From the NCBI GenBank assembly GCA_021817825.1, contig JAKAFS010000006.1, positions 1 to 64,000 of the forward strand: DNA of 64,000 bases, written 5' to 3'. Each line of letters opens with the position of its first letter. Position 1 is the stretch's first letter. Positions 34,359 through 63,284 of the stretch are shown here, in pieces. The position numbers were made by a program, and so were the translations under genes. The DNA is from Deltaproteobacteria bacterium. Lineage in GTDB: Bacteria > Desulfobacterota > Syntrophia > Syntrophales > UBA5619. The notes under the pieces are model-generated. The model had not been told where the DNA came from. It did no database searches and was given only the letters and a program-made list of their open reading frames with translations.

Positions 34359-36698
34359 TCACTGGGCATAGTAATTGATCAGGCAGCCGGACAGCAGAAT
34401 CGCCCGATCGTCCCGGGAGAGCCCCTCCAGATTGAGGGCGATGGGTTTCCGGATGCCGTCGTGGATCAAAAAGGCGGCGATCTTCTCGGCGCCCTCCTGC
34501 ACGGCCTTGCGAATCCCGGGAACATAGAGGAGATCGCTGACGGCCAGCTCCGCAGTCTCTCCCGGGGCTACCGTGAAAGGCAGGAGTCCCCAGTTGATCA
34601 GGTTGCTCCGGTAACGCTTCGTGGCGTATTCGACGGCGATATTGGCCTGACCGCCGAGGACCTTCTGGCACGACGCCGCCTGCTCGCGGGCCGAGCCGTC
34701 CCCCGGTTTGATCGCGAAGACCAGGCTGCCCAACCCCGTGCGCGACAGCCAATCGCGCAGAGTCTCCGGCGTCGGTTTTACCTCGGCGGGCAGGGAGGCG
34801 AGAAACTGCGTCAGCTCGGGCGACTCGCTGCCCCCGGCGAGAAAGGCCAGTCGCTGGGATTCCAGTTTGTTTGCCGCCTTGGCCCGGGCCACATAACCGG
34901 GGTCTTTACGCGACAGGGTGAATTCGGCCAGTTTCAACGGGTCGGAGCGATAGGACGAGGTTTCTCCCGAGGGGATCAACTCGTCCGTGGTCGTGACCGG
35001 GTCGCGGATCACCGAGGCCAGGGTCAGCAGCATGTCCTCCGCCAGCGGCTGCATCCGCGGCCAGTCGGCGATGTTCGGTCCCAATTGCAGCGGCTCTTCG
35101 CCTTTGGCCTTTCCGAATCCCTGGTAGACCCGCGTTTGGTAGATCGATCCGTCGAAGACATATTCGGCCGACGCCGTGGGGCAATCCACCTCCGTGGCCG
35201 GTGTGAGCAGTCCGTTGTTGAGCGCCGTGGCGGCGATCGACCGGGCGTCCATCAGGGCCACCGAGGCGATCTGGCCGCTGGACGGTTTCGATCCCTCCCG
35301 GTTCGGAAAGTTGCGCGTCGCATGGCGGATGCACAGGCCGTTGTTGCCCGGCGTATCGCCGGCGCCGAAGCAGGGGCCGCAGAAGGCCGTGCGGATCGTC
35401 ACCCCGGCGTTCATCAGCGTTGCCATCGACCCGTTGCGGGTCAAGGCCAGTCCGACCGGCTGGCTCGCCGGGTAGACGCTCAGCGAAAAGGCCCCATCGC
35501 CGATCGACTTTCCGCCCATGATGCCCGCCACCGCCGCCAGGTTGTCGAAGGTCCCGCCGGCGCAGCCGCCGACCACCCCCTGGTCCACCCGGAGACGGCC
35601 GCCGACGAGTTTCTCGGTCAGACGCAGTTTCAGGTTGGGATTCTCGATCATCTTGTTTCCCGCCTCTTCCACCTCTTTGAGGATCTCCGCGGCATGGCGG
35701 TTGAACTCGGCGATCGGCCAGGCGTTGCTGGGGTGGAAGGGCAGGGCGATCATCGGCTCCACCCGGCCAAGGTTGATCTCGATGATCCTGTCGTACCAGC
35801 AGAGGTCGCCGGGTTCCAGGAGGCGATAATCCTCCGGACGCCCGTGGTTTCTGTACCACGCCTCCACCTTGTCATCGGTCCGCCAGATCGAGGAGAGGCA
35901 GGTCGATTCGGTGGTCATCACGTCGATCCCGTTGCGGAAGTCCATCGGCAGATTGCCGATCCCCGGACCGATGAACTCCAGGACCTTGTTTTTCACGAGC
36001 CCCTTGGGAAACACGGCCCTAAGGAGCGCCAAAGAGACGTCCTGAGGTCCTACCCCGGGAAGCGGCTGTCCCGTGAGGAGAACGGCCACCACCTCGGGAC
36101 GGGGCAGTTCGTAAGGCTTGGAAAGGAGCTGCTTGACGAGTTCGGGTCCCCCCTCGCCGATTCCCATCGTTCCCAGGGCCCCGTAGCGGGTGTGGCTGTC
36201 CGAGGCCAGGATCATCCGGCCGCAACCGGCCATCATCTCCCGGAGATACTGGTGGATCACCGCCATATGGGCGGGAACGAAGATCCCCCCGTACTTGCGG
36301 GCCGCCGACAGGCCGAAGAGATGGTCGTCCCGGTTGATCGTCCCGCCGACGGCGCAGAGGCTGTTATGACAGTTCGTCAGCACATAGGGGACGGGAAAAA
36401 CCTCCATCCCGCTGGCCCGGGCCGATTGGATGATCCCCACATAGGTGATGTCATGCGACGCCAGCGAATCGAACTTAAGCTTCAGGGTCTGCGGGTCTTC
36501 CGAATGATCGTGGGCGGCAAGAATTTGATAGGCAAGGGTTCCGCGACGGGCCGACTCCCGGTCGATCGCCCCTTTCCAGGGCTCAAGGCCCGCCGACTCC
36601 AGGCGGCGATTGAGCTGCGCGGGAGAACCTGTTTCCGCCTCCTCGACGACCAAGCGCCCCTGAAATACAAATGCCGCCTTTTCCGATACTTTTACCAT
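34359..36698 (-). CDS. Aconitase-family hydratase (YbhJ-like)
   Basis: ILASDSHTRYGALGTMGIGEGG, VVGGCAGGTFDNLAAVAGIMGGK, AFCGPCFGAGDTPGNNG, NFPNREG; three putative cluster cysteines retained. Confidence 0.88.
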   Translation of the reverse strand: MVKVSEKAAFVFQGRLVVEEAETGSPAQLNRRLESAGLEPWKGAIDRESARRGTLAYQILAAHDHSEDPQTLKLKFDSLASHDITYVGIIQSARASGMEVFPVPYVLTNCHNSLCAVGGTINRDDHLFGLSAARKYGGIFVPAHMAVIHQYLREMMAGCGRMILASDSHTRYGALGTMGIGEGGPELVKQLLSKPYELPRPEVVAVLLTGQPLPGVGPQDVSLALLRAVFPKGLVKNKVLEFIGPGIGNLPMDFRNGIDVMTTESTCLSSIWRTDDKVEAWYRNHGRPEDYRLLEPGDLCWYDRIIEINLGRVEPMIALPFHPSNAWPIAEFNRHAAEILKEVEEAGNKMIENPNLKLRLTEKLVGGRLRVDQGVVGGCAGGTFDNLAAVAGIMGGKSIGDGAFSLSVYPASQPVGLALTRNGSMATLMNAGVTIRTAFCGPCFGAGDTPGNNGLCIRHATRNFPNREGSKPSSGQIASVALMDARSIAATALNNGLLTPATEVDCPTASAEYVFDGSIYQTRVYQGFGKAKGEEPLQLGPNIADWPRMQPLAEDMLLTLASVIRDPVTTTDELIPSGETSSYRSDPLKLAEFTLSRKDPGYVARAKAANKLESQRLAFLAGGSESPELTQFLASLPAEVKPTPETLRDWLSRTGLGSLVFAIKPGDGSAREQAASCQKVLGGQANIAVEYATKRYRSNLINWGLLPFTVAPGETAELAVSDLLYVPGIRKAVQEGAEKIAAFLIHDGIRKPIALNLEGLSRDDRAILLSGCLINYYAQ

Positions 36699-37024: not shown

Positions 37025-39007
37025 ATGCAGGACAAACCATATCAGATTGGCGTGCTTGTTTCCAGTATGCCGCTTATCGAGAAAATTCAAGAGCTGGCTA
37101 AGAAAGAGGGACACATCATCCATAGTTCCCGGGCCGCTTTCGAGGAGGCGGTGGCTGACGGCAAAAAGATGGAGGCCAGTGGCGTAGAGGTGATTATCAG
37201 CCGCCGGGGGCTGGCCCAAATGCTCCGCACCAACCTGCGGATTCCGGTGTTGTCGATTCCCTATGCCTCCGTCGATGCCCTTAAAAGCCTCAAGCAGGCC
37301 TCCGAGCTGGGCCGCAAGATCCTGCTGGCATCCTTTATGGAAAAGATAGACCGCATTGAGGTGATCGCAGAATTTCTCAATGTGGAGATCAAACAGTTCG
37401 TGTATGCGGATATTGCTTCCCTGGACGAAGGGCTTCGGTCCGCGGAAAGCCAGGGCTATGAGGTGGTTGTGGGCGGCCGTTGGACCATGCGCACCGCGGA
37501 GAAGCTGCGGACCATGAAGTATGTGCAATTGAGATCGATCGATATCGATGAGGATATTGCGGCGACCATCGAAAGCGCGACATCGGTCGCCCAGGTCAAC
37601 CGGGAAGAGAAAAAAAGGACCTATCGGTACCAGTGCATCATCGATGCCACGACGGAAGGGATCATCGCCGTCGACAATAAAGGCCGGGTCAACGCCATCA
37701 ACAAGGCGGCGAAGAACTTCATGAATATCACGGCCGCGAATATCATGGGGCAGCCGATCAGTTCGTTCATCAACAGCCCTTCGGTGTTGGATTTTCTCAA
37801 TGCCAAAGCGCCCATCTGGAACAAGCTCGAGAAAATCAATGATGAAATGTTCGTGTTCAACCACCTCCCGGTCGAGATGAGTAAGGAGATCATCGGAGGG
37901 GTATCGACCTTCAAGGACGTCAACAATGTGATGGTGGCGGAAAATGCCGTCCGGCAATCGTTGACCAAAGGATTTGTGGCCAAGTATTCCATCGCTGATC
38001 TCGTTCATGCCGACCCGGCGATGCGGAACGTGGTCACCAAGGCCCGGCAGTTTGCCAAGACGGATTCGACCATCCTGCTGGTCGGTGCGACCGGGACCGG
38101 GAAGGAGATCCTGGCGCAAAGCATCCACAATCTCAGCCCCAGAGCGGAAAATCCCTTCGTCAGTTTGCATTGCGGAGCGCTTCCCGAATCGCTGCTCGAA
38201 AGTGAACTCTTCGGATACGAAGAAGGCGCCTTTACGGGCTCCAAGAAGCGAGGCAGCGCCGGCCGGTTTGAAATGGCCCATACCGGGACTCTCTTTCTCG
38301 ACGAAATCGACACCACGCCGCTCAATGTCCAGACCCGTTTGCTCCGGGTTCTTCAGGAAAAAGAAGTGATGCGGTTGGGCGGAGGGCACAAAATTCCCGT
38401 CAACATCCGGATCATTGCGGCGGCCGGCCGGGATTTGGCGTCCGCCCTCCAGGAGGGGCGTTTCCGGGAGGATCTTTTTTTCCGGCTGAATGTGCTGCGG
38501 ATCAATATCCCGCCTTTGAAGGACCGCGCGAAAGACATTCCGGTTCTTCTTAAGCATTACATCGGCCAGCTGTCGGCAAAAAACGGACTGGAGCCGATCT
38601 CGCTGCCTTCTGCCTATGTGCAAAAGCTGATGGCCTATTCGTGGCCCGGTAACGTTCGCCAACTGCGCAATTTCGTGGAGTGTCTGGTGCTCAATTCCCA
38701 TCTGCGCTCCCACACGACCCCGCTTGAGGAGCTCTATGAAGAATTTTATGAGGAGCTGATGCAGTACGGTCCGGAAAATAAGATCGCTGAATCTGTAAAA
38801 GAGGCGAAGTCGATCAAAAAGGGGATGAAAGAACGAAAGCGGGATCAGGAATCGATCATCATTTGGGAGGCCCTGGAGGAGGCCAAATTCAACAAAACCA
38901 GGGCGGCGAAGGCGTTGGGCATCACCAGAACAACCCTTTGGCGTAAAATGAAAGAAGCGGGATACGACCTTCTTCCTCAAGACTCGGCAAATAGGCAGGA
39001 AAATTAG
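37025..39007 (+). CDS. Sigma-54-dependent activator: PrpR_N sensor + PAS + AAA+ + Fis HTH
   Basis: PrpR-like N-domain (ASGVEVIISRRGLAQMLRTNLRIPVLSI), PAS, GATGTGKEILAQSIHNLS, GAFTGSKKRGSAGRFE, C-terminal NKTRAAKALGITRTTLWRKMKEAG. ATG at 37025 within the longer ORF. Confidence 0.93.
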   Translation: MQDKPYQIGVLVSSMPLIEKIQELAKKEGHIIHSSRAAFEEAVADGKKMEASGVEVIISRRGLAQMLRTNLRIPVLSIPYASVDALKSLKQASELGRKILLASFMEKIDRIEVIAEFLNVEIKQFVYADIASLDEGLRSAESQGYEVVVGGRWTMRTAEKLRTMKYVQLRSIDIDEDIAATIESATSVAQVNREEKKRTYRYQCIIDATTEGIIAVDNKGRVNAINKAAKNFMNITAANIMGQPISSFINSPSVLDFLNAKAPIWNKLEKINDEMFVFNHLPVEMSKEIIGGVSTFKDVNNVMVAENAVRQSLTKGFVAKYSIADLVHADPAMRNVVTKARQFAKTDSTILLVGATGTGKEILAQSIHNLSPRAENPFVSLHCGALPESLLESELFGYEEGAFTGSKKRGSAGRFEMAHTGTLFLDEIDTTPLNVQTRLLRVLQEKEVMRLGGGHKIPVNIRIIAAAGRDLASALQEGRFREDLFFRLNVLRINIPPLKDRAKDIPVLLKHYIGQLSAKNGLEPISLPSAYVQKLMAYSWPGNVRQLRNFVECLVLNSHLRSHTTPLEELYEEFYEELMQYGPENKIAESVKEAKSIKKGMKERKRDQESIIIWEALEEAKFNKTRAAKALGITRTTLWRKMKEAGYDLLPQDSANRQEN

Positions 39008-39395: not shown

Positions 39396-39410
39396 TGGCA
39401 TCTGTCTTGC
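39396..39410 (+). promoter_or_regulatory. Sigma-54 (-24/-12) promoter of the citDEF-like operon
   Basis: TGGCATCTGTCTTGC; GG-N10-GC; 49 bp upstream of citD-like start. Confidence 0.82.
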
Positions 39411-39458
39411 TTTGACTAGGTAAGACGCAGAGCTGCGCTGCAAAAAAGCACTCAGGAG

Positions 39459-39764
39459 ATGATGAAGCGTATGGCACGTCAAGCGACCAGAATTCGTCGT
39501 GAATCCAAAGCCGGCCTTGATGAAAAAGGTGATATCGTCGTTTGCCTTTCCCCGGGGAAGAAGAACAGCGGCATCGAGATGGAGATTGAGAGCACCGTCA
39601 AGTCCCTCTTTGGCGAGCAGATCCGCGCCTCGATCCGGGAAATTATCGAAGAATACGGCATTGCGGATTTGAAGATTGCGGTCCGCGACCAGGGGGCGTT
39701 GGATTATGCGATCCGGGCTCGGGTGCAAACCGCCATCGAGAGGGCCCTAAAGGAGTGTGAATAA
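39459..39764 (+). CDS. CitD-like (citrate lyase gamma / acyl carrier subunit-like) protein, modification serine apparently absent
   Basis: GIEMEIESTVKSLFGEQIRASIREIIEEYGIADLKIAVRDQGALDYAIRARVQTAIERA matches the CitD core; N-terminal AGLDEKGD replaces the expected AGTLESSD. Confidence 0.8.
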   Translation: MMKRMARQATRIRRESKAGLDEKGDIVVCLSPGKKNSGIEMEIESTVKSLFGEQIRASIREIIEEYGIADLKIAVRDQGALDYAIRARVQTAIERALKECE

Positions 39765-40639
39765 TGGCAAAACTCAGACGTTCACGCATCTATCTGCCGG
39801 GCAACCGACCCCGGGTGATCCAGAAAGGCACCCTGCTGGGCGCCGATGTGGTGATCCTGGATTTGGAAGACTCGGTGGCCCCGGACGAGAAGGATGCGGC
39901 GCGGATTCTGGTGACCAATGCGATTAAATCCGTGAACTTCGGCGCCGCCGAGGTCATGGTGAGAATCAATCCCCTGACCACCTGCGGGCGGGAGGACCTG
40001 GCCGCCGTGTTGCCCGTGGAACCCGATGCGATTGTGGTTCCCAAGTCGGAAAACCGTGAGGGGGTTCAGGTGGTGGAGCGGGCCATTCTGGAAAGCAAGC
40101 TCGGAAAACGGGTCGCGATCCTGCCGCTGATCGAATCGGCAAAGGGGATTCTGAACGCCTACGATATCGCCAGCGCCTCGACGCTGGTGGAGGCGATCAC
40201 CTTCGGCGGCGAAGACTTCACCAAGGACATCGGGGCGACGCGCACCCGCGAGGGACAGGAGATTTTTGTCGGTCGGAGCCTGCTCGTGATTGCCGCCAAG
40301 GCCGCCGGCGTCCAGGCCCTCGATACGGTCTTCTCGGATTTCAACGATATGGAGGGGCTGCGCAAAGACACCCTGGCCGTCAAACAGATGGGATTCGACG
40401 GCCGGGCGGCGATTCATCCTTCCCAGATCGAAGTGATCCACGAAGTATTTACCCCGACGGAAAAGGAAATCCAAGCCGCCGTCAATGTGATCCGGGCTGC
40501 GGAAATCGCCCGCAAAAAAGGCAGCGGCGTGGCGGTCGTCAAGGGAAAGATGATTGACAAGCCGGTCATCGAGCGGGCCGAAAAGGTCATCTGCATCGCC
40601 GAACGGTTGAGCCTGCCGATTCCCGAGCCCGAAGGATAA
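39764..40639 (+). CDS. Citrate lyase beta subunit-like (HpcH/HpaI/CitE family)
   Basis: RSRIYLPGNRPRVIQKGTLLGADVVILDLEDSVAPDEKDAAR, LPLIESAKGI, FGGEDFTKDIGATRT, IHPSQIEVI; TAATG overlap with the citD-like gene. Confidence 0.9.
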   Translation: MAKLRRSRIYLPGNRPRVIQKGTLLGADVVILDLEDSVAPDEKDAARILVTNAIKSVNFGAAEVMVRINPLTTCGREDLAAVLPVEPDAIVVPKSENREGVQVVERAILESKLGKRVAILPLIESAKGILNAYDIASASTLVEAITFGGEDFTKDIGATRTREGQEIFVGRSLLVIAAKAAGVQALDTVFSDFNDMEGLRKDTLAVKQMGFDGRAAIHPSQIEVIHEVFTPTEKEIQAAVNVIRAAEIARKKGSGVAVVKGKMIDKPVIERAEKVICIAERLSLPIPEPEG

Positions 40640-40809: not shown

Positions 40810-42381
40810 ATGTCGAAAGCAAATGAGGCCGTCAATGCCGTCGGGAGGAAAGTGCCCCTGCAAATCGACGGCAGGCGCTATCGTCCCTTTTCGGGCGCCT
40901 TTGCCGAACCCCCCAAGGAGGACAAAAGACGCGTCGGACCGCGGCTCGGAACCATCTTGCATCCCGGCGAGGACAAGGTGGTCGCCACCCTGCGCAAGGC
41001 GATCGAACGGACGGAGCTGAAAGACGGCATGACCGTCTCCTTCCATCACCATTTCCGGGAGGGAGACAAGGTCCTCAACATGGTCATGGCGGAGATTGCC
41101 GCCATGGGATTCAAGAACATGACCATCGCCCCTTCCTCTCTGTTCCCGGTCCACGAACCGCTGCTCGAACACATCAAAAACGGCGTGGTCACCTGCATCG
41201 AAGGGGGCAGCGCCCAGGGGAAGATCGGCCGGGCGATTTCCCGGGGCGTGATGGAGCGCCCCATGGTCATCCGCTCCCACGGCGGCCGGGTGCGGGCCAT
41301 CGAAAGAGGGGATCTGCACATCGACGCGGCCTTTATCGGCGCCCCCTGCGCCGATGCCATCGGAAACTGCAACGGCGTGAAAGGACCCTCGGCCTGCGGT
41401 CCCCTCGCCTATGCCCTGGCCGACGCCATCTACAGCGAAAAGACGGTGGCCGTGACCGATTACCTGGAAGAAACGCCGGTCGTTCCCATCAGCATCACCC
41501 AGGAGTTCGTGGGAACGGTCGTCAAGGTGGACAACATCGGCGACCCCGCGAAAATCGTCTCCACTTCCCTGCGCATCACCAGGGACACGGTCAATCTCGG
41601 GATTGCCAGGAACGCCGTGCGCGTCATCGAGGCCTCCGAGGTCTTTCGCAACGGCATCCGCTTCCAGACCGGGGCCGGCGGGACCTCTCTGGCGGTGACC
41701 CAGTTCCTCGGCGAACGGATGAGAGAGCGGGGCATCGTGGGCAGCTTCGGCATGGGGGGGACGACGGAGGGGCTGGTCCGATTGCTCGAACAGGGACTCC
41801 TCAAAAAGATCCTGACCGTCCAGGCCTTCGATCAGTACGCGATCCAATCGCTCCTGAACGACGTGAACCACATCGAAATCGGGGCCGGCTTCTATGCCAA
41901 CCCGCATAACCGCGGCACGGCGGTCAATCTGCTGGACGCCGTGGTTCTGGGCGCCACCGAAATCGACGTCCACTTCAACGTCAACGTGAACACCCACTCC
42001 GACGGGTTGCTCCAGTATGCGACGGGGGGCCATGCGGACACCGCGGCGGGCGCCAAACTCACCATCATCACCACCCCTCTCATTCGGGGGCGCATTCCGG
42101 TCGTCGTGGACGACGTGGTCGTGGTGTCCACGCCCGGCGAATCGGTGGACGTTCTCGTGACGGACTACGGCATCGCCGTGAATCCGCGGAGGCCCGATCT
42201 GATCGATCAGATGAAGGCCGCGAACGTTCCTTTGAAGACGATCGAAGAATTGCGGGACTTGGCTTACAGCATCACCGGAAAACCGCAGAAGCCCGTGTTT
42301 ACCGATAAGGTCGTCGCCCTCATCGAGTACCGGGACGGCACGCTGATCGATGTCTTGCGGCAAATCGCGCCGGAACGTTGA
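40810..42381 (+). CDS. Citrate lyase alpha subunit-like (CitF family CoA-transferase)
   Basis: LKDGMTVSFHHHFREGDKVLNMVM, GDLHIDAAFIGAPCADAIGNCNG, FQTGAGGTSLAV, GATEIDVHFNVNVNTHSDG, GGHADTAAGAKLTIITTPLIRGRIP. Confidence 0.93.
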   Translation: MSKANEAVNAVGRKVPLQIDGRRYRPFSGAFAEPPKEDKRRVGPRLGTILHPGEDKVVATLRKAIERTELKDGMTVSFHHHFREGDKVLNMVMAEIAAMGFKNMTIAPSSLFPVHEPLLEHIKNGVVTCIEGGSAQGKIGRAISRGVMERPMVIRSHGGRVRAIERGDLHIDAAFIGAPCADAIGNCNGVKGPSACGPLAYALADAIYSEKTVAVTDYLEETPVVPISITQEFVGTVVKVDNIGDPAKIVSTSLRITRDTVNLGIARNAVRVIEASEVFRNGIRFQTGAGGTSLAVTQFLGERMRERGIVGSFGMGGTTEGLVRLLEQGLLKKILTVQAFDQYAIQSLLNDVNHIEIGAGFYANPHNRGTAVNLLDAVVLGATEIDVHFNVNVNTHSDGLLQYATGGHADTAAGAKLTIITTPLIRGRIPVVVDDVVVVSTPGESVDVLVTDYGIAVNPRRPDLIDQMKAANVPLKTIEELRDLAYSITGKPQKPVFTDKVVALIEYRDGTLIDVLRQIAPER

Positions 42382-42445: not shown

Positions 42446-42628
42446 CAGACAAATGATTTGACAAAAAACCTGGGCAGTGTTTTTTTATTCTTACCTTAAC
42501 TGATCGTTCTGGCCCGCCTGATGGGCACGTTTGCATCGAAGTCGGTTTTCGATCGGTCGATCGGGAACCCTTTGACTCGGTTTTCAATTTTGAACTGCTG
42601 TAGTTCACACAAACATGAAGGAGACAAT

Positions 42629-43879
42629 ATGAAGGAATCATCTAAGACACCTTGGGACATCGAAGGAAAGTGGTCTGTTTCGCCTTATGGATGGGCAGAA
42701 GAGGTGCGCAAGGAATTTCCCCTGATGCCTAAAAAGATCCTCATCCGCGACGACACCTTCCGGGAAGGCGACCATTGCATCGGATATCGCATGAGTTTCG
42801 AAGACAAGATCGAGCTCCTGCGCCTCGCCGTGGAAATGGGGGTCGAGGAGATCGACATCGGCGGTCCCACGCTGCACCAGACCGAATACAATCTGACCGG
42901 CGCCCTGAAGTCTTCCGGTATCAAAGTTCGCAAGACGGCCCGCATCTTCGGTAACAAAAACGCTGATTTTCGGCGGGAAATCGATATGTGCATGGAAGCC
43001 GGCGCCGACAACCTGCGCATCGTTCTGATGTATCTCAACGAGCAGAAGGTTCTCGACGAGCTCAAGAACCTTCCCGCCCTCTTCGACTACGTTCACAGCC
43101 AGCACAAGACCACCATCAGCTGGGCGATCTCGGACACTCCCCGGGCCCCCATGCATCTGATCCGGAAGGTCTACGAAGACGGCCTGGCCGCCGGCGGAGA
43201 CAAGGCGGGAGTCAACGACACCTTCGGGATCGCGACCCCGACGGTGATGCGCTATCTGACCCGCGTGATTCGGGAGATCATTCCGCCGACGATGGACCTC
43301 AAGGCCCATTGCCACAATACCTACGGCTTGGCCACGGCCAACACCCTGGCCTGTGCCGAGGGAGGGGCCACGGAACTTGATTGCTGCATCAACGGCTACG
43401 GCGACGAGGCGGGCAATGCCTCTCTTGAGGAGGTGGCCGTGAGCCTTGAGGCGCTCTATGGTGTCGATACGGGGCTTGACCTCACGATGATGAACAAGTA
43501 TTCGCAGTTGGCCGTCGAGAAGGGAAAGATGCCGATCCAGGCCTTCAAGGCCGTCGTCGGTGAAAACGCCTTCCTGCGGCCGATGTTGATCTGGTCGGGC
43601 GTCAACATGGCCAAAGAGTCCTGGATGCTCCATGAACCGCTGGATCCGGACTGCGTGGGAGCGACCTCGACGGTGGTCTTCGGTCCGGCCCAGAGCCTGG
43701 AAGACGAACCGATCGAAGTGAAGTTCAAGGAAATGGGGATTCCCTGCACGCCGGAGAAGATCGTCAAGGCCCGAGCCGAGGCGGAGAAGATGCTCGCCGA
43801 AGAGAGGACGGTCAAGATCCGCGCCCACAAGTACGTGACCGAGGCGGAGTTCGAGGACATTCTGAAGAAGATCGGCTGA
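42629..43879 (+). CDS. DRE-TIM metallolyase family enzyme (HMG-CoA lyase / homocitrate synthase-like)
   Basis: ILIRDDTFREGDHC at the start of the TIM barrel and HCHNTYGLATANTLACAEGGATELDCCINGYGDEAGNASLEEV (HXH and conserved Gly/Asn loop). Confidence 0.85.
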   Translation: MKESSKTPWDIEGKWSVSPYGWAEEVRKEFPLMPKKILIRDDTFREGDHCIGYRMSFEDKIELLRLAVEMGVEEIDIGGPTLHQTEYNLTGALKSSGIKVRKTARIFGNKNADFRREIDMCMEAGADNLRIVLMYLNEQKVLDELKNLPALFDYVHSQHKTTISWAISDTPRAPMHLIRKVYEDGLAAGGDKAGVNDTFGIATPTVMRYLTRVIREIIPPTMDLKAHCHNTYGLATANTLACAEGGATELDCCINGYGDEAGNASLEEVAVSLEALYGVDTGLDLTMMNKYSQLAVEKGKMPIQAFKAVVGENAFLRPMLIWSGVNMAKESWMLHEPLDPDCVGATSTVVFGPAQSLEDEPIEVKFKEMGIPCTPEKIVKARAEAEKMLAEERTVKIRAHKYVTEAEFEDILKKIG

Positions 43880-45912: not shown

Positions 45913-47349
45913 ATGCACAAACAGAGTGATTCCGCGCCAGAGGAAGCGACCCGCACCCTCTCCCGATTCATCGCCGAAGCCGATTATGCCCAGCTTCCCG
46001 CCGTCGTCACCGAAAGGGTCAAGCACAGCATCCTGGATACCCTCGGCATCATCATGCCGGCGAGCGTCTTGATGCCCGATCTTACGGCCGCCATCGATCT
46101 GCGCATCGAAGCGGGCGGCAAGGAGGAAAGCAGCATCCTGGCCTACGGCGTCAAGGCGCCCTGCTGGGAGGCGGCCTTCGCCAACGGCGTCCGGGGCCAC
46201 GCGCTCGATTACGCGGACGGCCATCTGGAAGCGGTCTTCCGGATCGGGATCAGCGTCATCCCCGGGGCCTTGGCCATTGCCGAAAGGATCGGCGGGGTCA
46301 GCGGCAAGGCGTTCATCACCGCCGTTGCCACGGGCGAAGAGATTCTCTGTCGTCTCGGCATCTCCGTCGCCCGCAAACGCAAGACCATGGGCCCCTGGCA
46401 TTCCGGCATCCTGCTGGGGAATTTCGGGGCCACCGCCTCGGCCGCCAAAGTCCTGGGCTTGAACGCCGATCAGACCGACCGGGCCTTCGGCATCGCCTTT
46501 CTGCAAACCGGCGGCACGGAAACCACCACGGCGCCGGATTCCAATATCCGCGGGATGTATGGCGGTTTTGTCTCCCAGACCGGCGTCCTGGCCGCCCTGA
46601 TGTCGCAACGGGGCATCCTCGGCCCCAAGGGTTGCCTGGAGTCGCCCGAGAATGGGTTGTTTGACGCCTATTATCGCGGCCTCTACGACCGGGAAGCCCT
46701 TATCGACCAACTGGGGGCGCGGTACGAAGTGGAGAACCTCAGCTTCAAGCCCTGGCCGGCCTGCGCCTTCACCCACCCCTATATCGGCGCGATGCTGGAT
46801 CTTCTGGCGGAAAACAAGCTCAGCGGCGAGGATATCGAAGAAATCGATGTCTATGTCGGGAAAATCAACTGGGCGCTCTGCGAGCCCATCGACCCGGACC
46901 AGGGAAAGGTGCCGACCACCACCAATGACGCCAAGCGCAGCATTCCTTTCAACGTGGCCGTCGCTGCCGCCCGGGGAAAGGTCTCCTTCGGCGATTTCAC
47001 CGCCGAAGGGCTTCGCGATCCCGAGTTGTTGAAGATGGCCAAAAAAGTCCGCCGCCTATCGGATCCGGAACTCGACGCCGACAATTTTGCGAAAGAGGGC
47101 AGTCAGCTCCCTCCCGGCAAGGTGGGGGTGAAGGTCAAGGGCGGGAAGCGCTACATCAAACAGGTCAGCGTGCCCTACGGCCATCACCTCAACCCCGTCA
47201 AGGGCCCCGACATCGTGGAGAAATTCCGGGACTGTGTGGCCTTTTCTCCGCGGCCGATTCCCGCCGCCGACCGGGAGCGGGTGATCGACATGATTCTCCA
47301 TCTGGAAGAGGTTCCCGATATTCGGGAGATCATCCGGTTGCTGGCCTGA
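45913..47349 (+). CDS. MmgE/PrpD family protein
   Basis: VKHSILDTLGIIMPAS, FANGVRGHALDYADGHLE, GPWHSGILLGNFGATASAAKVLGLNADQTDRAFGIA, KPWPACAFTHPYIGAMLDL. Confidence 0.93.
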   Translation: MHKQSDSAPEEATRTLSRFIAEADYAQLPAVVTERVKHSILDTLGIIMPASVLMPDLTAAIDLRIEAGGKEESSILAYGVKAPCWEAAFANGVRGHALDYADGHLEAVFRIGISVIPGALAIAERIGGVSGKAFITAVATGEEILCRLGISVARKRKTMGPWHSGILLGNFGATASAAKVLGLNADQTDRAFGIAFLQTGGTETTTAPDSNIRGMYGGFVSQTGVLAALMSQRGILGPKGCLESPENGLFDAYYRGLYDREALIDQLGARYEVENLSFKPWPACAFTHPYIGAMLDLLAENKLSGEDIEEIDVYVGKINWALCEPIDPDQGKVPTTTNDAKRSIPFNVAVAAARGKVSFGDFTAEGLRDPELLKMAKKVRRLSDPELDADNFAKEGSQLPPGKVGVKVKGGKRYIKQVSVPYGHHLNPVKGPDIVEKFRDCVAFSPRPIPAADRERVIDMILHLEEVPDIREIIRLLA

Positions 47350-47373: not shown

Positions 47374-49233
47374 ATGCCGTACGGATACACGGGCAGAATT
47401 CTCTGGATCGACCTGACCGAAGGGTCGATCCGGGAAGAAACCCCCGATGAGAGCTTCTACCGCAGGTATGTCGGAGGACGCGGCATCGGCGCCTGGGCGT
47501 TGCTGAAATATCAGTCGGCCCGGGTGGATGCCTTCGGTCCCGACAACATCCTCGGATTTACCGCGGGCCTCCTGGTCGGCTTCCTGCCCGGAGCGACCCG
47601 CTGCTCCATCGTGACCAAGTCGCCGCTCACGGACGGCTGGGGGGATGCGAGCGTCGGCGGCCCCCTGGCCACGAAGCTCAAACAGGCGGGATTCGACGCC
47701 GTCTTCCTCAAAGGCATCGCTCCCCATCCCGTTTACCTCACCCTGATCGACGGCCAGGCCGAGTTGCACGATGCCCGACCCCTCTGGGGAAAAGGGACTC
47801 GCGAGACCCTTGATTTGCTGGCCGCCGAGACCCCGGGAATCCGTCCCGGCATCGCCTGCATCGGCCCGGCCGGCGAAAACCGCTCCTTGATCGCGGCGAT
47901 CGTTTCGACCCAGGGGGTGGCGGCCCGGGGCGGGTTGGGGGCGGTCATGGGGGCAAAGCAGCTCAAGGCGATCGTCGTGCAAGGGGCGGCCAAGCCCGAG
48001 GCGGCGGACGCCGCGCGGGCCAAGGCGCTACAGAAAGAGATCTTCAAACATCTCAGCACGAGCCCGATGATGCCCTTGGCGAAATTTCGCGGTCAGGGCA
48101 CCTGTGCGGGCTTTGAGGACAATGTCGTTTCCGGCGGCGCCCCCATCAAAAACTGGCAACTTTCCGGCGCCGAGGCCATGCCGACGTACACAAATCTCGG
48201 CAAGGTCCTGCAATACCGGACCAAGGAAACGGCCTGCCCCGGCTGTCCGATCGCCTGCAAGGGCCGGGTGCGCATCGCGGAGGGGCCTTTCCAGGGGGCG
48301 GAGATGGAAAAGCCCGAGTATGAAAGCCTCAATGCGCTAGGTCCCATGTGCCTCAACGACAACCTCGAAGGGGTGATGAAGGCCAACGATCTGTGCAACC
48401 ACTACGGCCTGGATACCATCTCCGCGGGAACGACCGTTGCCTTTGCGATGGAGTGTTACGAGCGGGGTCTCATCACCCAAAGGGATACCGGCGGCGTGGC
48501 GCTGACCTGGGGCAATATCGAGGCCACCCTGACCCTGATCGAACAAATGGCCCTCCGGCAGGGTTTCGGCGCGATCCTGGCCGACGGGACGCGCAAGGCC
48601 GCCGAGCGGATCGGGCGGGGCAGCGAGCGCTATGCGGTCCAGGTCCATGGTCGCGAAGTGCCGATGCACAACCCCCGCCAGTTTCCCGGAACGGCCCATA
48701 TCGTCGCCTACAGCTGCGAACCCAACCCTTCCAACCACGTCCCCAGCAAAGGGATCGGCAACATCGAACTCGCCAAGGACCTGGGGCCCTATCCCGAACT
48801 CAAAGGCGTGAAAGCGGAGATGGACGATTTTCAGGCCAAGCTGGACATCTACCGAAGGGGCCACTCCTGGTTCCACTTCGTCGAGGCCTGCGGCCTGTGC
48901 TCCTTCGTGATGAATACGGGCCTGCCGATCGTGGATGTGGTGCAGGCCGTCACGGGTTGGGACTTCACCGCCGAGGAATTGCTGTTGACCGGGGAACGGA
49001 TCCAGACGCTGCGGCAACTCTTCAATTTCCGGGAAGGGATCAGGCCCGCCGATTTCCAGCTGCCCGAGCGCGTCGTAGAACCGCCGCCCACGGGTCCCCA
49101 CAAGGAAAAAAGGTATCCCATCGATGACATAAGACGCACCTATTTTCAGGCGATGAGTTGGGACCCGGTGACCGGGCAACCTTCGCCGCAGCGGCTGCGT
49201 GAACTCGGTTTGGAGGGGATGATCGAAAAATAG
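47374..49233 (+). CDS. Aldehyde:ferredoxin oxidoreductase (AOR) family
   Basis: YVGGRGIGAWALLKY, GGLGAVMGAKQLKAIVVQG, CPGCPIACKG, EACGLCSF; W/Mo-pterin AOR fold signatures. Confidence 0.95.
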   Translation: MPYGYTGRILWIDLTEGSIREETPDESFYRRYVGGRGIGAWALLKYQSARVDAFGPDNILGFTAGLLVGFLPGATRCSIVTKSPLTDGWGDASVGGPLATKLKQAGFDAVFLKGIAPHPVYLTLIDGQAELHDARPLWGKGTRETLDLLAAETPGIRPGIACIGPAGENRSLIAAIVSTQGVAARGGLGAVMGAKQLKAIVVQGAAKPEAADAARAKALQKEIFKHLSTSPMMPLAKFRGQGTCAGFEDNVVSGGAPIKNWQLSGAEAMPTYTNLGKVLQYRTKETACPGCPIACKGRVRIAEGPFQGAEMEKPEYESLNALGPMCLNDNLEGVMKANDLCNHYGLDTISAGTTVAFAMECYERGLITQRDTGGVALTWGNIEATLTLIEQMALRQGFGAILADGTRKAAERIGRGSERYAVQVHGREVPMHNPRQFPGTAHIVAYSCEPNPSNHVPSKGIGNIELAKDLGPYPELKGVKAEMDDFQAKLDIYRRGHSWFHFVEACGLCSFVMNTGLPIVDVVQAVTGWDFTAEELLLTGERIQTLRQLFNFREGIRPADFQLPERVVEPPPTGPHKEKRYPIDDIRRTYFQAMSWDPVTGQPSPQRLRELGLEGMIEK

Positions 49234-49272
49234 TTTTAACTTAAGTAGCCAAATAACGAATAAGAGGTGCTC

Positions 49273-50910
49273 ATGACTCAGATGACTGGCGGTAAAGCAA
49301 TCGTTAAATCGTTGATACTGAACGGTATCGATACTCTGTTTTGCATCCCGGGAAAGGAACTGGACCAATTCTTCGTCGCCCTTTACGACGAGCGCGAGGC
49401 CATCCGGGTGATCGCGAACCGCCATGAACAGGGCTGCGGCTACATGGCCTTCGGTTACGCCCAGTCCACAGGCAGGGTCGGGGCCTACGCCGTGGTTCCG
49501 GGTCCGGGCTTCCTCAACGCCTCGGCTGCCCTTTGCACGGCCTATGCAGGCAACGCGCCGGTGCTTTGCGTGACCGGCCAGGTTCCCTCGAAGCAGATCG
49601 GCCGCGGGGCCGGCGCCCATCACGAGATCAACGACCAGTTGGGGATCATGCGCAACCTGACCAAGTTCGCGACGCGCATCGAACACCCGGCCCTGGCGCC
49701 CGAGGCGGTGGAGCAGGCCTTCCGCGCCCTTTCCAGCGGCCGCCGAAAGCCGGCCGGAATCGAAATGGCGCCGGACATTCTGGCGATGTCGGCGCCGGTG
49801 ACGTTGCGCGCCCCCGTGCCGGCTCCCGCGCCGGTCGAACCGGACCCCGAGTTGGTCGACCAGGCCGCTGCCCTGCTGGGAGAGGCCCAGAATCCGATCA
49901 TTGTCGCCGGCGGGGGCATCTTCGGCGCCGAGGAGGCGCTGTTGGCCGTGGCCGAAACGGTACAGGCGCCGGTGTCGATGTCGCGGAACGCCAAGGGAGC
50001 GGTCAGCTTCCGCCACTATCTCGGCGTGCCCGAAACGGTCGGCCACAAGCTCTGGCCCGACGTCGATGTGGTCCTGGCGGTCGGCACCCGGCTCGATGAT
50101 CAGTACAAGCGTTGGGGCATCGGCAAGGAGGTCAAGGTGATCCGTGTCGACGTCGATCCGGCGGAGCTGGAACGGAACGGAAAGCCGGCGGTAGGCCTGC
50201 TGGCGGATGCCAAATTGACGCTGGTCGCTCTGGCGAACGCTTTGGGACGTCATAACCGCAAGCGGCCGTCGCGTAAAGAAGCGTTGGAAGGTCTGAAGGT
50301 CCAACTGCAAAAGGAATACGATCACCTATCCCCCCAAATCGACTACATCAAGGTGATTCGCGCGGAACTTCCCGACGACGGCATCTTCGTCGGCGAGGCC
50401 ACCCAGATCGCCTACGCCGCCCGCGTGGCCATGCCCTTCTACCTGCCGCGCACCTTCATCACCCCCGGTTATCAGGGAACGCTCGGTTATGGCTTCACGA
50501 CCGCCCTGGGCGCCAAGGTGGGCAATCCCGACAAACAGGTCATCTCGATCACCGGCGACGGCGGCTTCCTGTTCGGCGCCTCGGAACTGGCAACGGCTGT
50601 GCAGCATCGGATCGCGACGGTCACCTTGGTCTTCAACAACAATGCCTACGGGAACGTCAAGCGTGAGCAGATTGAAAAATACGGCGGGAGAGTGATCGCC
50701 ACGGACCTGAAGAATCCTGATTTCGTCAAACTCGCCGAGGCTTACGGGGCGCAGGGGCTCCGTGCGGAAACGCCGGAAGCCTTGGCAAAAGCCATTCGGC
50801 GGGGATTCGACCACGACGGTCCGACGATCATCGAGATCCCGGTTCCCGACGATATGCCCAGCCCCTGGCATCTCATCGACATGCCGAAGGCCGGCAAGGG
50901 CAAACATTGA
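49273..50910 (+). CDS. Thiamine-pyrophosphate-dependent enzyme (acetolactate synthase / 2-oxoacid decarboxylase-like)
   Basis: NRHEQGCGYMAFGYAQ (cofactor-activating Glu), TGDGGFLFGASELATAVQH..FNNNAYGNV (TPP/Mg motif). Confidence 0.92.
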   Translation: MTQMTGGKAIVKSLILNGIDTLFCIPGKELDQFFVALYDEREAIRVIANRHEQGCGYMAFGYAQSTGRVGAYAVVPGPGFLNASAALCTAYAGNAPVLCVTGQVPSKQIGRGAGAHHEINDQLGIMRNLTKFATRIEHPALAPEAVEQAFRALSSGRRKPAGIEMAPDILAMSAPVTLRAPVPAPAPVEPDPELVDQAAALLGEAQNPIIVAGGGIFGAEEALLAVAETVQAPVSMSRNAKGAVSFRHYLGVPETVGHKLWPDVDVVLAVGTRLDDQYKRWGIGKEVKVIRVDVDPAELERNGKPAVGLLADAKLTLVALANALGRHNRKRPSRKEALEGLKVQLQKEYDHLSPQIDYIKVIRAELPDDGIFVGEATQIAYAARVAMPFYLPRTFITPGYQGTLGYGFTTALGAKVGNPDKQVISITGDGGFLFGASELATAVQHRIATVTLVFNNNAYGNVKREQIEKYGGRVIATDLKNPDFVKLAEAYGAQGLRAETPEALAKAIRRGFDHDGPTIIEIPVPDDMPSPWHLIDMPKAGKGKH

Positions 50911-50938
50911 TCCAAAAATCGAAAGGAGATTGAAAACA

Positions 50939-51799
50939 ATGAAGACGAAGATTGTTGACATCCATCCCCATATCGTTTCTACCGATACGGAACGATACCC
51001 GATCACTCCCCTGGAGGGAAAGCAGTCGGAATGGTCCAAAAAACGGTCCGTAACCTTTGAAGAGATGATCGCCGCCATGGACGACGCAGGTGTGGACAAG
51101 TCCGCCCTGGTTCATTCGTCAACGACCTACGGCTATGACTGCTCCTATGTGGCCGACAGCATCGCCAAATTCCCCCAGCGGGTCACGGGGATTGCGTCGC
51201 CGAACATGATGGCCGACGATGCCGTCGAAAAGATCCGCTATTGGGTGAAGGAAAGAAATTTCGCCGGCCTGCGGTTGTATACGGCGGGGGGAACCCATGA
51301 AAAGCAGTCGGGTTGGATGGCGGATCCCAAGATTTTCCCCGGCCTGGAATATGCGCAGGAGCTCGGGCTCGCGGTCTGTGTTTCTTTGAAACCGGCAGGC
51401 ATCCCACAGCTGTTGGTGATTATCAAGAAATTCCCCAAGATACGCTTCGTCATCGACCATATGATGGAGCCGCCCATCGCCGAGGGGATGCCCTATGCGG
51501 GGTCGGAGTTCCTGTTCGATTTGGCGCAATACGGGAACGTGGTTCTCAAGATGACCACCCTCAACATCCGGGCCTCCCGCAAAGAGAAAGGATCTCCCGA
51601 GACCTTCTTCCCCCTGCTGGTGAAGAAGTTTGGCGCGTCCCGGATCGCCTGGGGTTCAAACTATCCCTCGGCGCAGGGGTCCCTGAAAGAGATGGTGGAA
51701 GAGGCGAAGGCGGCTCTGGCCTGTCTGTCGGAGCAGGATCGGGAATGGATCTTTGCCCGGACGGCTCAGTCGCTCTATCCCGCCCTGGCGGACAAATGA
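50939..51799 (+). CDS. Amidohydrolase-2 family metal-dependent hydrolase (PDC-lactonase/ACMSD-like fold)
   Basis: VDIHPHIVSTD (HXH), FVIDHMMEPP, IAWGSNYPSAQGSLKEMVEEAK. Confidence 0.87.
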   Translation: MKTKIVDIHPHIVSTDTERYPITPLEGKQSEWSKKRSVTFEEMIAAMDDAGVDKSALVHSSTTYGYDCSYVADSIAKFPQRVTGIASPNMMADDAVEKIRYWVKERNFAGLRLYTAGGTHEKQSGWMADPKIFPGLEYAQELGLAVCVSLKPAGIPQLLVIIKKFPKIRFVIDHMMEPPIAEGMPYAGSEFLFDLAQYGNVVLKMTTLNIRASRKEKGSPETFFPLLVKKFGASRIAWGSNYPSAQGSLKEMVEEAKAALACLSEQDREWIFARTAQSLYPALADK

Positions 51800-58817: not shown

Positions 58818-58832
58818 TGGCACCTGTCTTGC
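58818..58832 (+). promoter_or_regulatory. Sigma-54 (-24/-12) promoter of the hydroxyacid dehydrogenase-tctCAB unit
   Basis: TGGCACCTGTCTTGC; GG-N10-GC, matches TGGCAY-R/N-N4-TTGC consensus. Confidence 0.85.
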
Positions 58833-59006
58833 TTCGGTGGCAAGCCAGACAAATGCGGCCAATGATGAAAAAAGGAAATGGATTCACATGTAAATACCCC
58901 GCGGTGAAAGGGTAATGTAGTTGATTTTGTAATATTAACCGGTACAAAGCGCTTGACAATATCTTAATCTTTGATACGAAAACAAACAAGAAGAGGAGCA
59001 CCATTC

Positions 59007-60071: not shown

Positions 60072-60188
60072 TCGTTTTCGTTGTCGGCAAAATAAGAGGT
60101 GTGGCAGATCGGGTCGAAATATCCGGTTGTTTTTGGATACGGGTCCGGTTATGTTGTCAGTCCCATAACTACTAAAAAGGGGGTCTCT

Positions 60189-61184
60189 ATGAAACGAAAA
60201 GTGCTTTTGGTCGCGTTTTGCATGATGATGGGTTTTCTCTTGACGAGTCAGTGTCTGGCCGCTGAAGATGCGGCAACCTTTTACAAGGGAAAGACGCTCA
60301 ACATCCTCATTCCCAGCTCTCCGGGCGGCACCTTTGACCTGCTTTCCCGCGCCCTGGGTCCCTATCTCGAAAAGTATACGGGCGCCCGGCCGCTCATGCA
60401 GAACAGCCGGAATATCCAAGTGCAGAATATGCTTTTTAGGAGCAAGCCGGACGGCTTGACGCTCGTTCTGGCCGGCCATGGACCGAAGGAAATCACGGCC
60501 CAGATGTTCAAGCAGGAAGGGGTCGTCTTCGACTGGACCAAATTCACCCTCCTGGGACGGCTGCCCTCCAGCTCGACCGCCTTTGCCGTCGACAAAAAGA
60601 TGGGCGTGAAAAAGCCGGCCGACCTGCGGGGCAAGGCCTTCTTCGCCGGCGCCAGCAGCCCCTTCTTCGAGCCCCTCTTTGCCGAGGCCTTGGGCTGGGA
60701 TAAGATGATCGTCATTCCCGGCATGTCCGGCGGGGAAAGGTCCCTGGCAATGCGCCGGGGCGAAATTCAGGGCTGCTCCGGCGGCGCCGCCCAGATGTCG
60801 AAGGATGCCGACCTGATGATGCCCATCGTCGTGTCGACCAAGGATCCCAAGGGGTTCCCCGGCATCCCGACCGCCGAGGAAGCGGCCGTCAAGGGCAAGG
60901 AAAAATGGGGTCGTTTGGCAGGCGCCTGGGACGAACTCATGTACTGGTCCTATGCGACCCCGGGTATCCCGCAGGATCGGGCGGCCTTCCTGGAAAGCGC
61001 ACTACAGAAGGCGTACAATGACCCGGCCTACCGCGCCGACTTGGTGAAACTGAAGATCGACCTGTCGGAGCACTTTGTGGGGTCGAAGGAATTGAAGTCC
61101 TTGACCAAGGAAATCGAAGGCATGTCGGAAAAGGAAATCAAGGAGATGGAAACGATCATCGAAACGAAATACCTGAAAAAATAG
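60189..61184 (+). CDS. Tripartite tricarboxylate transporter substrate-binding protein (TctC/Bug family)
   Basis: Signal peptide; FYKGKTLNILIPSSPGGTFDLLSRALGPYLEKYTGA; downstream tctA/tctB. Confidence 0.88.
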   Translation: MKRKVLLVAFCMMMGFLLTSQCLAAEDAATFYKGKTLNILIPSSPGGTFDLLSRALGPYLEKYTGARPLMQNSRNIQVQNMLFRSKPDGLTLVLAGHGPKEITAQMFKQEGVVFDWTKFTLLGRLPSSSTAFAVDKKMGVKKPADLRGKAFFAGASSPFFEPLFAEALGWDKMIVIPGMSGGERSLAMRRGEIQGCSGGAAQMSKDADLMMPIVVSTKDPKGFPGIPTAEEAAVKGKEKWGRLAGAWDELMYWSYATPGIPQDRAAFLESALQKAYNDPAYRADLVKLKIDLSEHFVGSKELKSLTKEIEGMSEKEIKEMETIIETKYLKK

Positions 61185-61205
61185 AAAAGACGGACAGAAT
61201 GGTCT

Positions 61206-61242
61206 TGGCTGGTTCCCGGGGGGGTGCCCCGGGAACCAGCCA
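61206..61242 (+). terminator. 16-bp perfect intercistronic stem-loop between tctC and tctA
   Basis: TGGCTGGTTCCCGGGG GGGTG CCCCGGGAACCAGCCA; no T-run. Confidence 0.7.
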
Positions 61243-61331
61243 GCGAGTTTGAACTTCCGGGCTCGGCCGGAGGCGATGTGATTTCTATTTTGTGTCGAGA
61301 AGTGGCTTAACTTCTGGAAGGAGGTACGCGC

Positions 61332-62813
61332 ATGCTTGAAGCTGCCGCAAGCGCATTGTTGCAACTGTTTACACCGTACTATTTTATGTTGTTCATGATC
61401 GGGATTTTCTTGGGCCTCATCACGGGAATCATCCCCGGCGTCGGCGGGACCGTCGCCCTGGCCCTGATCCTTCCCTTCGTCATGAAGCTCGATGCTGCCG
61501 CGGCGCTGCCCCTGGTGATCGGTTTGATCTCCCCTGTGCTCACCTCGGACTCCATTCCCGCGATCCTCATCGGGGCGCCCGGTTCGGCGAGTGCCGCGGC
61601 CACGATGATGGACGGCTTTCCCATGGCCAAACGGGGGGAAGCCGGCCGGGCCTTGGGCATCGCCTTTACGGCCTCGGCCATCGGCGGCGTCTTCGGCGCA
61701 GTGCTGATCGCCGTTTCCATCCCGGTCCTGAAACCCCTGGTGCTCTTCTTTGAAACGCCGGAATTTCTGGCCATGAGCGTCCTGGCCATCTCCGCGGTGG
61801 CCATTCTCAGCGGCGGCAGCATTCTGAAGGGCGTCGGCGCCGCCGGGATCGGCCTTTTGCTGGCCATGGTCGGGGAGGATCCCATCCGCTTCGTGCCCCG
61901 CTGGAATTTCGGCGTCGAATATCTGGTCAACAGCATCCATATCATTCCCGTGGCCATGGGGCTCTTCGCGATCCCCGAGATGCTGGAAACCTGCATCGGC
62001 GGCGCCGCCATTGCGGATGTCTCGGCAGAATCGATGAAGGGTAGACGGGTCGGGCTGATGGATGTGCTGCGGGAGTGGAAATTGGTATTGAGCTCCTCGG
62101 CCATTGCCTCGGTCATCGGATTTTTGCCCGGCTTGGGCAGCACGGTGTCGACCTGGATCTGCTACACCTGGGCGATGCTCACCAGCAAGGACAAAACCGC
62201 TTTCGGCAAGGGCGACATCCGGGGCGTCATCGGCTGCGAAGCCGCCAACAACGCCAGCGCCGGCGGCGCCATGATTCCCACGATCGCCTTCGGCGTGCCG
62301 GGATCGACGATTACCGCTCTCGTCCTGGTCGTCTTCTGGGCGGTGGATATCAACCCGGGGCCGAAGTTGCTGACCGAACATCTGGATCTGGTCTATTTGA
62401 TCGTCTGGTCCATTGCCCTGGCCAACATCATCGGCGCCGCCATCTGCTATCTGGCGACCAATAAATTGGCCCTGCTCACCAAGGTGCCGGCCCATATCCT
62501 GGCCCCCCTGGTGATGACGGTGCTGGTGGCCGGCACCCTCTATGCCACGGCTTCCGTGGGCGGCGTCGTGGTCCTCATTGCCTTCGGGATTCTCGGTTGG
62601 TTCATGAAATCCCTCGGCTGGCCGCGCCCGGCCTTTTTGCTGGCCTTTATTCTGGGTCCGGTCATCGAGCGGTTCTACTTCCATTCGGTCATGATGTACG
62701 GCAGCGGCTGGGTCGCCCGTCCCGCGGTGATCATCATCCTCCTTTTGGCCGTCGCCCTCATCTATACGGGATGGAAAATACAAGGTAAAGCCGAGCATCA
62801 GGGAGGAGCCTAA
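61332..62813 (+). CDS. Tripartite tricarboxylate transporter large permease (TctA family)
   Basis: LFMIGIFLGLITGIIPGVGGTVALALILPFVMKLDAAAALPLVIGLISPVLTSDSIPAILIGAPGSASAAATMMDGFPMAKRGEAGRALG. Confidence 0.96.
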   Translation: MLEAAASALLQLFTPYYFMLFMIGIFLGLITGIIPGVGGTVALALILPFVMKLDAAAALPLVIGLISPVLTSDSIPAILIGAPGSASAAATMMDGFPMAKRGEAGRALGIAFTASAIGGVFGAVLIAVSIPVLKPLVLFFETPEFLAMSVLAISAVAILSGGSILKGVGAAGIGLLLAMVGEDPIRFVPRWNFGVEYLVNSIHIIPVAMGLFAIPEMLETCIGGAAIADVSAESMKGRRVGLMDVLREWKLVLSSSAIASVIGFLPGLGSTVSTWICYTWAMLTSKDKTAFGKGDIRGVIGCEAANNASAGGAMIPTIAFGVPGSTITALVLVVFWAVDINPGPKLLTEHLDLVYLIVWSIALANIIGAAICYLATNKLALLTKVPAHILAPLVMTVLVAGTLYATASVGGVVVLIAFGILGWFMKSLGWPRPAFLLAFILGPVIERFYFHSVMMYGSGWVARPAVIIILLLAVALIYTGWKIQGKAEHQGGA

Positions 62814-62816
62814 ACC

Positions 62817-63284
62817 ATGAAAAACATCTTGCAATATACTTTTACATCCCTCTGGATCGTCGGCGTGGCGATTGCCCTTTATGTGGCCAGAAACTGGAAT
62901 TCCACCACGGCCCTTTTCCCGAAATCGGTAGGATATCCGATGCTGGCCTTGTTGATTGCCATCCTGGTGATCGATATCCTCAAAGGCCTGCGCCGGAAAG
63001 AGAAGGGGAAAGGGGCTGAGGAAGACGATTTTTCCGCCAAGAACCGCTGCATGGTCGTTTATTTAAGCTGGCTGGTCGGGTTTGCGCTTCTCGTTTGGGC
63101 CATCAGTATTCAATATGCCATTCCGATCTACATCTTCGCCTATATGAAGATCCAGGGGAAATATAGCTGGCTCAAATCGGCTCTCTATGCAGCAGCCGCG
63201 ACGGCCTTCGTTTTTCTCCTCTTTCAATATGCATTCAGCGTCTCCTGGCCCGATGGGGAGATCCAAACCCTGTTGGGTTTATAG
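62817..63284 (+). CDS. Tripartite tricarboxylate transporter small permease (TctB family)
   Basis: Four-TM small protein 3 nt after tctA stop; FPKSVGYPMLALLIAILVIDILKGL. Confidence 0.85.
   Translation: MKNILQYTFTSLWIVGVAIALYVARNWNSTTALFPKSVGYPMLALLIAILVIDILKGLRRKEKGKGAEEDDFSAKNRCMVVYLSWLVGFALLVWAISIQYAIPIYIFAYMKIQGKYSWLKSALYAAAATAFVFLLFQYAFSVSWPDGEIQTLLGL

Follow-up and report, generated by a model that had tools for sequence, protein, structure and literature searches.

A probable citrate lyase-like complex without a covalent coenzyme A arm, and its relatives among bacteria and archaea

The citDEF genes in the 64 kb stretch of DNA analyzed here (the window; 64,000 nucleotides) probably encode a citrate lyase-like complex that lacks the 2'-(5''-phosphoribosyl)-3'-dephospho-CoA arm and uses free CoA esters, judging from subunit sequences and gene content. 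In citrate lyase, a textbook enzyme, it is a covalently bound CoA derivative that defines the action. Since both the serine that holds this group and all of the genes that make and attach it have been lost, the window enzyme, and with it many bacterial and archaeal relatives with this change, probably uses ordinary free coenzyme A.

The attachment site of CitD and the partner subunits

The ORF encoding the CitD-like subunit (39,459–39,764, + strand) is intact and 101 aa long; homologues suggest that the true start is the ATG at 39,471 rather than 39,459, which would give a protein of 97 aa. The protein scores above the cut-offs of both the TIGR01608 citD equivalog (79.6 bits; cut-off 63.5) and PF06857 (89.1 bits; cut-off 25.1), in keeping with the original prediction of a well-preserved CitD core, and below that of the MdcC model TIGR03130 (27.8 bits; cut-off 84.1). 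With Klebsiella CitD as reference, the attachment loop A18-G-L-D-E-K-G-D25 (39,510–39,533, + strand) aligns gap-free from the AG to the D anchor, AGLDEKGD against AGTLESSD. Lys23 (codon AAA, 39,525–39,527) thereby falls opposite Ser14, the carrier of phosphoribosyl-dephospho-CoA, and Gly24 opposite the next residue. A larger alignment of 128 CitDs, anchored by E. coli CitD from NC_000913, gives the same column and bears out the lysine originally predicted at the prosthetic-group position. Lys or Arg occupies this column in five relatives on other contigs, so Lys23 is not a sequencing slip; the serine that holds the prosthetic group is absent from the window CitD, as it is across its clade.

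Within the clade, the loop has no conserved Ser, Thr, Cys or Tyr. Ser45, which lies outside the loop, is widely conserved and is probably structural because canonical CitDs have it too. Ser16 (the S of ESKAG), the residue that the original prediction had named as the possible alternative site, was rejected as the site of modification; it is Ala in L015–L019.

A structural model, one of the checks proposed at the outset, shows that the CitD fold is intact (AlphaFold with 35 natural CitDs as input; pLDDT 89.6). The best whole-chain match in the PDB is MdcC of malonate decarboxylase (5vit_C; TM 0.76/0.78, 1.9 Å), and on this comparison the window CitD has the acyl-carrier fold; EF-G entries outrank MdcC by E-value but have lower TM-scores and an rmsd of 5–7 Å. 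MdcC was reached by fold comparison only, as a PDB sequence search, profile included, found no structure of CitD or of the complex. In the model, Lys23 lies in a loop between strands 16–19 and 26–32 that corresponds to the Ser25 loop of MdcC. In MdcC itself, the loop joins two strands and has the modified Ser25 at its tip, and the protein acts as a bridge in its complex (PMC5534430).

CitD is encoded together with a CitE-like lyase subunit of the HpcH/HpaI family (39,764–40,639, + strand; PF03328, 182 bits) and a CitF-like CoA/ACP transferase subunit (40,813–42,381, + strand). CitF exceeds the TIGR01584 citF cut-off (649 bits; cut-off 501), while CitE is below the equivalog cut-off of TIGR01588 citE (294.5 bits; cut-off 443.4) and also below that of NF038242, the RipC itaconate lyase model (193 bits; cut-off 375). 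Both subunits carry residues typical of the clade: CitE has Arg8, found in 19/19 sequences of the serine-less type vs. Met in 34/37 others, and CitF has Glu130 and His395, present in 23/23 of that type.

Distribution of the Lys/Arg state and of the modification enzymes

The original prediction concerned one odd protein, and the window CitD now proves to be one member of a large clade of bacteria and archaea. Searching GTDB species genomes with CitF returned seven close relatives (78–87% identity), after which identity drops to about 54%; the seven belong to Syntrophaceae, Syntrophobacterales, Desulfobacula, Desulfobulbaceae and one contig labelled only deltaproteobacterium. All readable CitDs of the window’s CitF clade have Lys or Arg at the serine column, in the motifs ERGD, EKGD or DKGD. 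Across the 128 CitDs of our first set, this column contains S (92), K (17), A (7), E (3), T (3), R (2), N (1) and G (1), with two rows short of the column, and all 19 CitDs with Lys or Arg come from genomes without CitX. The few CitDs found in the window’s order are all of the Lys/Arg type, one of them fused to CitE; elsewhere in its phylum, ten of 11 family matches are CitDs, all with Ser, and the remaining one falls below threshold and is not a CitD. Lys or Arg also occupies the column in CitD-CitE fusions of Krumholzibacteriota, Riflebacteria and Actinomycetota. Within the Thermoplasmatota, CitD is encoded on 39 of 246 genomes, with many copies fused to CitE; none of the 41 CitDs read has Ser or Thr at the serine position, and 40 have Lys or Arg there or at the next residue.

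Natural CitD-CitE fusions are common in Thermoplasmatota and also occur in several bacterial phyla, and all of those read are serine-less. Two further arrangements were observed among the relatives: a same-type CitD (ERGD) split over two frames (L140; an assembly error or a pseudogene), and CitE and CitF in a single ORF of 824 aa (L016:9104–11575; a fusion or an assembly error). At six loci, a second CitD copy in which Ala, Glu, Asn or Gly replaces the serine is found beside a canonical CitD and the modification machinery, and is possibly another non-carrier paralogue.

The window’s genome, which has one CitD, was searched for CitX and CitG, and none were found; a search for a true CitC returned a single weak PF08218 match, rejected because it is CoaD (TIGR01510, 195.6 bits). 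Of the features of holo-citrate lyase (EC 4.1.3.6), the genome thus lacks CitG with CitX and also CitC. CitX is likewise missing from all 57 handles of serine-less genomes tested (most genomes sampled are MAGs, and a few handles may be one genome reached twice), and CitG and true CitC are missing from those, the window’s included, that were also searched for them. Among 61 genomes, CitX, CitG and true CitC were all found in 30 and all absent in 31, and every genome of the Lys/Arg type, again including the window’s, is among these 31. In a further set of 60 handles, CitX occurs in 0/39 Thermoplasmatota, 0/4 Lys/Arg-type genomes of the window’s order and 10/10 Synergistota. The CitDs of the Synergistota (motif ESMD) keep the first Ser, and CitG is present in 15 of the 16 genomes searched; CitX, CitG and CitC are nearly always present in serine-type relatives.

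There is an exception group of 10 genome handles (Desulfosporosinus, Peptococcaceae and some Desulfovibrionaceae), in which CitD retains Ser or Thr and no CitX, CitG or CitC was found where tested. Loss of the machinery alone therefore does not force loss of the serine. The CitE of this group is only about 230–244 aa long, without the C-terminal part. In addition, a prpD-citE-citF cluster occurs in a Syntrophomonadaceae genome (L089) that has neither CitD nor the modification machinery.

A maximum-likelihood CitF tree (84 rows) recovers the Lys/Arg types, the CitD-CitE-fused forms and CitF from archaea without CitD as one clade of 28 rows (support 94/89), with the Synergistota CitDEF as its sister. 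By parsimony, Ser was exchanged for Lys once on this tree, and the machinery changed state (present or absent) three times; one of the three cases is a small genome that is probably incomplete. An independent-pairs test of Lys against machinery loss yields one pair. The association of Lys with machinery loss is thus not statistically repeated: the correlation is strong across genomes, yet it is one evolutionary event in this sample. With midpoint rooting, the tree does not polarize the change, and the covalent arm could even have arisen from a serine-less CitDEF. Four archaeal CitF genes (L024, L035, L039 and L046) come from genomes with no CitD and no good CitE-family match.

Gene neighborhood and predicted substrate

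A sigma-54 type -24/-12 promoter, TGGCATCTGTCTTGCT (39,396–39,411, + strand), lies upstream of citD and matches TGGCAYNNNNNTTGCW exactly. A second exact promoter, TGGCACCTGTCTTGCT (58,818–58,833, + strand), precedes a 2-hydroxyacid dehydrogenase-like gene (not family-scanned) and the tct genes; exact matches to TGGCAYNNNNNTTGCW number 2 in the 64 kb, vs. 0.07 expected. The tct genes encode a tripartite tricarboxylate transporter (60,099–63,284, + strand; PF01970, 390 bits, and PF07331, 47 bits), with TctA at 61,332–62,813, TctB at 62,817–63,284 and a probable TctC that is assigned by position only and has no Pfam match. The second promoter suggests that citDEF and the tct genes belong to one regulon, and a PrpR-type sigma-54 dependent activator (37,025–39,007, + strand; PF06506 PrpR_N, PF00158 Sigma54_activat and HTH_8) is the likely regulator of citDEF. 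On the opposite strand is a YbhJ-like hydratase of the aconitase family (34,359–36,698, − strand; NF008503, 1188.7 bits vs. a cut-off of 641). The region from 47,374 to 51,799, downstream of the cit cluster, contains genes for an aldehyde ferredoxin oxidoreductase, a thiamine pyrophosphate enzyme and an amidohydrolase.

In relatives, citDEF is found in a citDEF-tct-icd-acnB cluster (L017; Tct transporter, NADP-isocitrate dehydrogenase and aconitase B) and in a tcuA-prpF-icd-citDEF-prpD cluster (L018; tricarballylate dehydrogenase, a PrpF homologue, a monomeric isocitrate dehydrogenase and a PrpD homologue), and homologues of the L017 TctA/TctB-type transporter are encoded at L015 and L016. These neighbors, together with the PrpR-type activator and the paired sigma-54 promoters, point to citrate or a close relative as the putative substrate.

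With CitE scoring below the citE cut-off, the enzyme could instead act on the acyl group of another hydroxy-tricarboxylate or of a citramalate-like acid, and it is possible, if rather unlikely, that the window encodes a free-CoA lyase for citramalate, methylcitrate or a homocitrate-like acid. This alternative touches only the choice of substrate and does not conflict with loss of the arm. It would fit the genes that follow citF in the window, which encode an adjoining isopropylmalate/homocitrate-synthase-like HMGL protein (42,521–43,879, + strand; PF00682, 128 bits, below all NCBIfam equivalog cut-offs), an enolase-superfamily enzyme and an MmgE/PrpD-family protein (45,913–47,349, + strand; PF03972 and PF19305). 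However, the isocitrate dehydrogenase, aconitase B or tricarballylate dehydrogenase genes of the L017 and L018 clusters, the TctA/TctB-type genes shared by L017 and the window, and a CitF well above the citF cut-off argue against it.

Proposed mode of action and comparison with known systems

If citrate is the substrate, CitF would form citryl-CoA by moving CoA onto citrate from free acetyl-CoA, with release of acetate; CitE would then split citryl-CoA into oxaloacetate and acetyl-CoA, and the latter would enter the next round. Dimroth and Eggerer reportedly found in 1975 that free CoA esters are substrates for the isolated CitF and CitE subunits, so the cycle should need no arm and no CitC, CitX or CitG. 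Characterized stand-alone CitE-like enzymes also use free acyl-CoA thioesters (PMC3832036). CitD, its fold kept, may serve as a bridging subunit or scaffold, as MdcC does in malonate decarboxylase, and, more speculatively, the Lys or Arg at the old serine position may lie beside the bound CoA and contact its 3'-phosphate. More tentatively, we propose that the clade as a whole, which spans Thermodesulfobacteriota, Thermoplasmatota, Krumholzibacteriota, Riflebacteria and Actinomycetota, is a widespread group of citrate lyases free of the prosthetic group, in which CitD may have turned from carrier into structural subunit and the basic residue may hold non-covalent CoA in place of the arm.

The original prediction had left two options. 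Absence of the machinery from the window’s own and related genomes strongly favors the first, in which free acyl-CoA thioesters would be used and CitD would be structural; the second, modification at another site, is disfavored, as the precursor-making enzyme is absent and the loop has no conserved nucleophile. A CitD that is still a carrier, with phosphoribosyl-dephospho-CoA or 4'-phosphopantetheine attached to another residue by an unrelated enzyme, would naturally retain its subunit and fold, and unknown enzymes could in principle replace CitG-like functions. The lack of any conserved candidate residue in the loop, the presence of Ser45 in canonical CitDs, the absence of CitG, and the clade members with CitD fused to CitE or without CitD nevertheless make such a carrier very improbable. 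We consider it very improbable that the complex is broken or decaying, with Lys fixed by neutral drift after loss of the machinery. While the loss of the whole modification pathway and the frame-split CitD of one relative (L140) would agree with decay, citDEF is intact and collinear and follows a sigma-54 promoter and an activator gene, the basic residue is kept in both bacteria and archaea, and CitF is 78–87% identical among relatives with its group-specific residues conserved. That the machinery genes are missing only through incomplete MAGs is barely credible even though the window’s genome is a MAG in 204 contigs (95.5% complete), given the absence of CitX from 57/57 genome handles of this type and the loss of the serine as well.

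An arm-free complex using free CoA is thus our preferred reading, and neither a serine-less CitD nor a CoA-only CitDEF turned up in the literature searched, which covered few subscription journals. The window CitD exceeds the equivalog cut-off, and automatic annotation names CitDs of the clade acyl carrier proteins; should the clade use free CoA, many archaea and anaerobic bacteria are misannotated in this respect. With such a clade, one could also ask by natural comparison why the covalent arm exists, and its three-gene citrate lyase, simpler and free of accessory enzymes, could be used for citrate cleavage or acetyl-CoA supply.

Based on these sequence comparisons, the window CitDEF is best classed as a variant of citrate lyase, not a separate kind of system. 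It shares with the canonical CitCDEFXG enzymes of E. coli and Klebsiella the collinear citD-citE-citF order, a CitD and a CitF that pass the equivalog cut-offs and the CitD fold; it differs in having Lys/Arg for the serine, in lacking CitC, CitX and CitG, in a CitE below its equivalog cut-off and in other residues at CitE position 8 and CitF positions 130 and 395. The Synergistota CitDEF, although sister to the window’s clade in the CitF tree, keeps the first Ser, CitG and CitX. MdcC (5vit chain C) resembles the window CitD in its fold and corresponding loop and bridges other subunits, but retains Ser25 and its modification enzymes. The itaconate enzymes RipA/RipC and other free-CoA CitE-like lyases couple a CoA transferase to a CitE-family C-C lyase, as the window complex would; unlike the window, RipA/RipC-type systems have no CitD, their transferase subunit is not CitF, and they act on other acyl groups.
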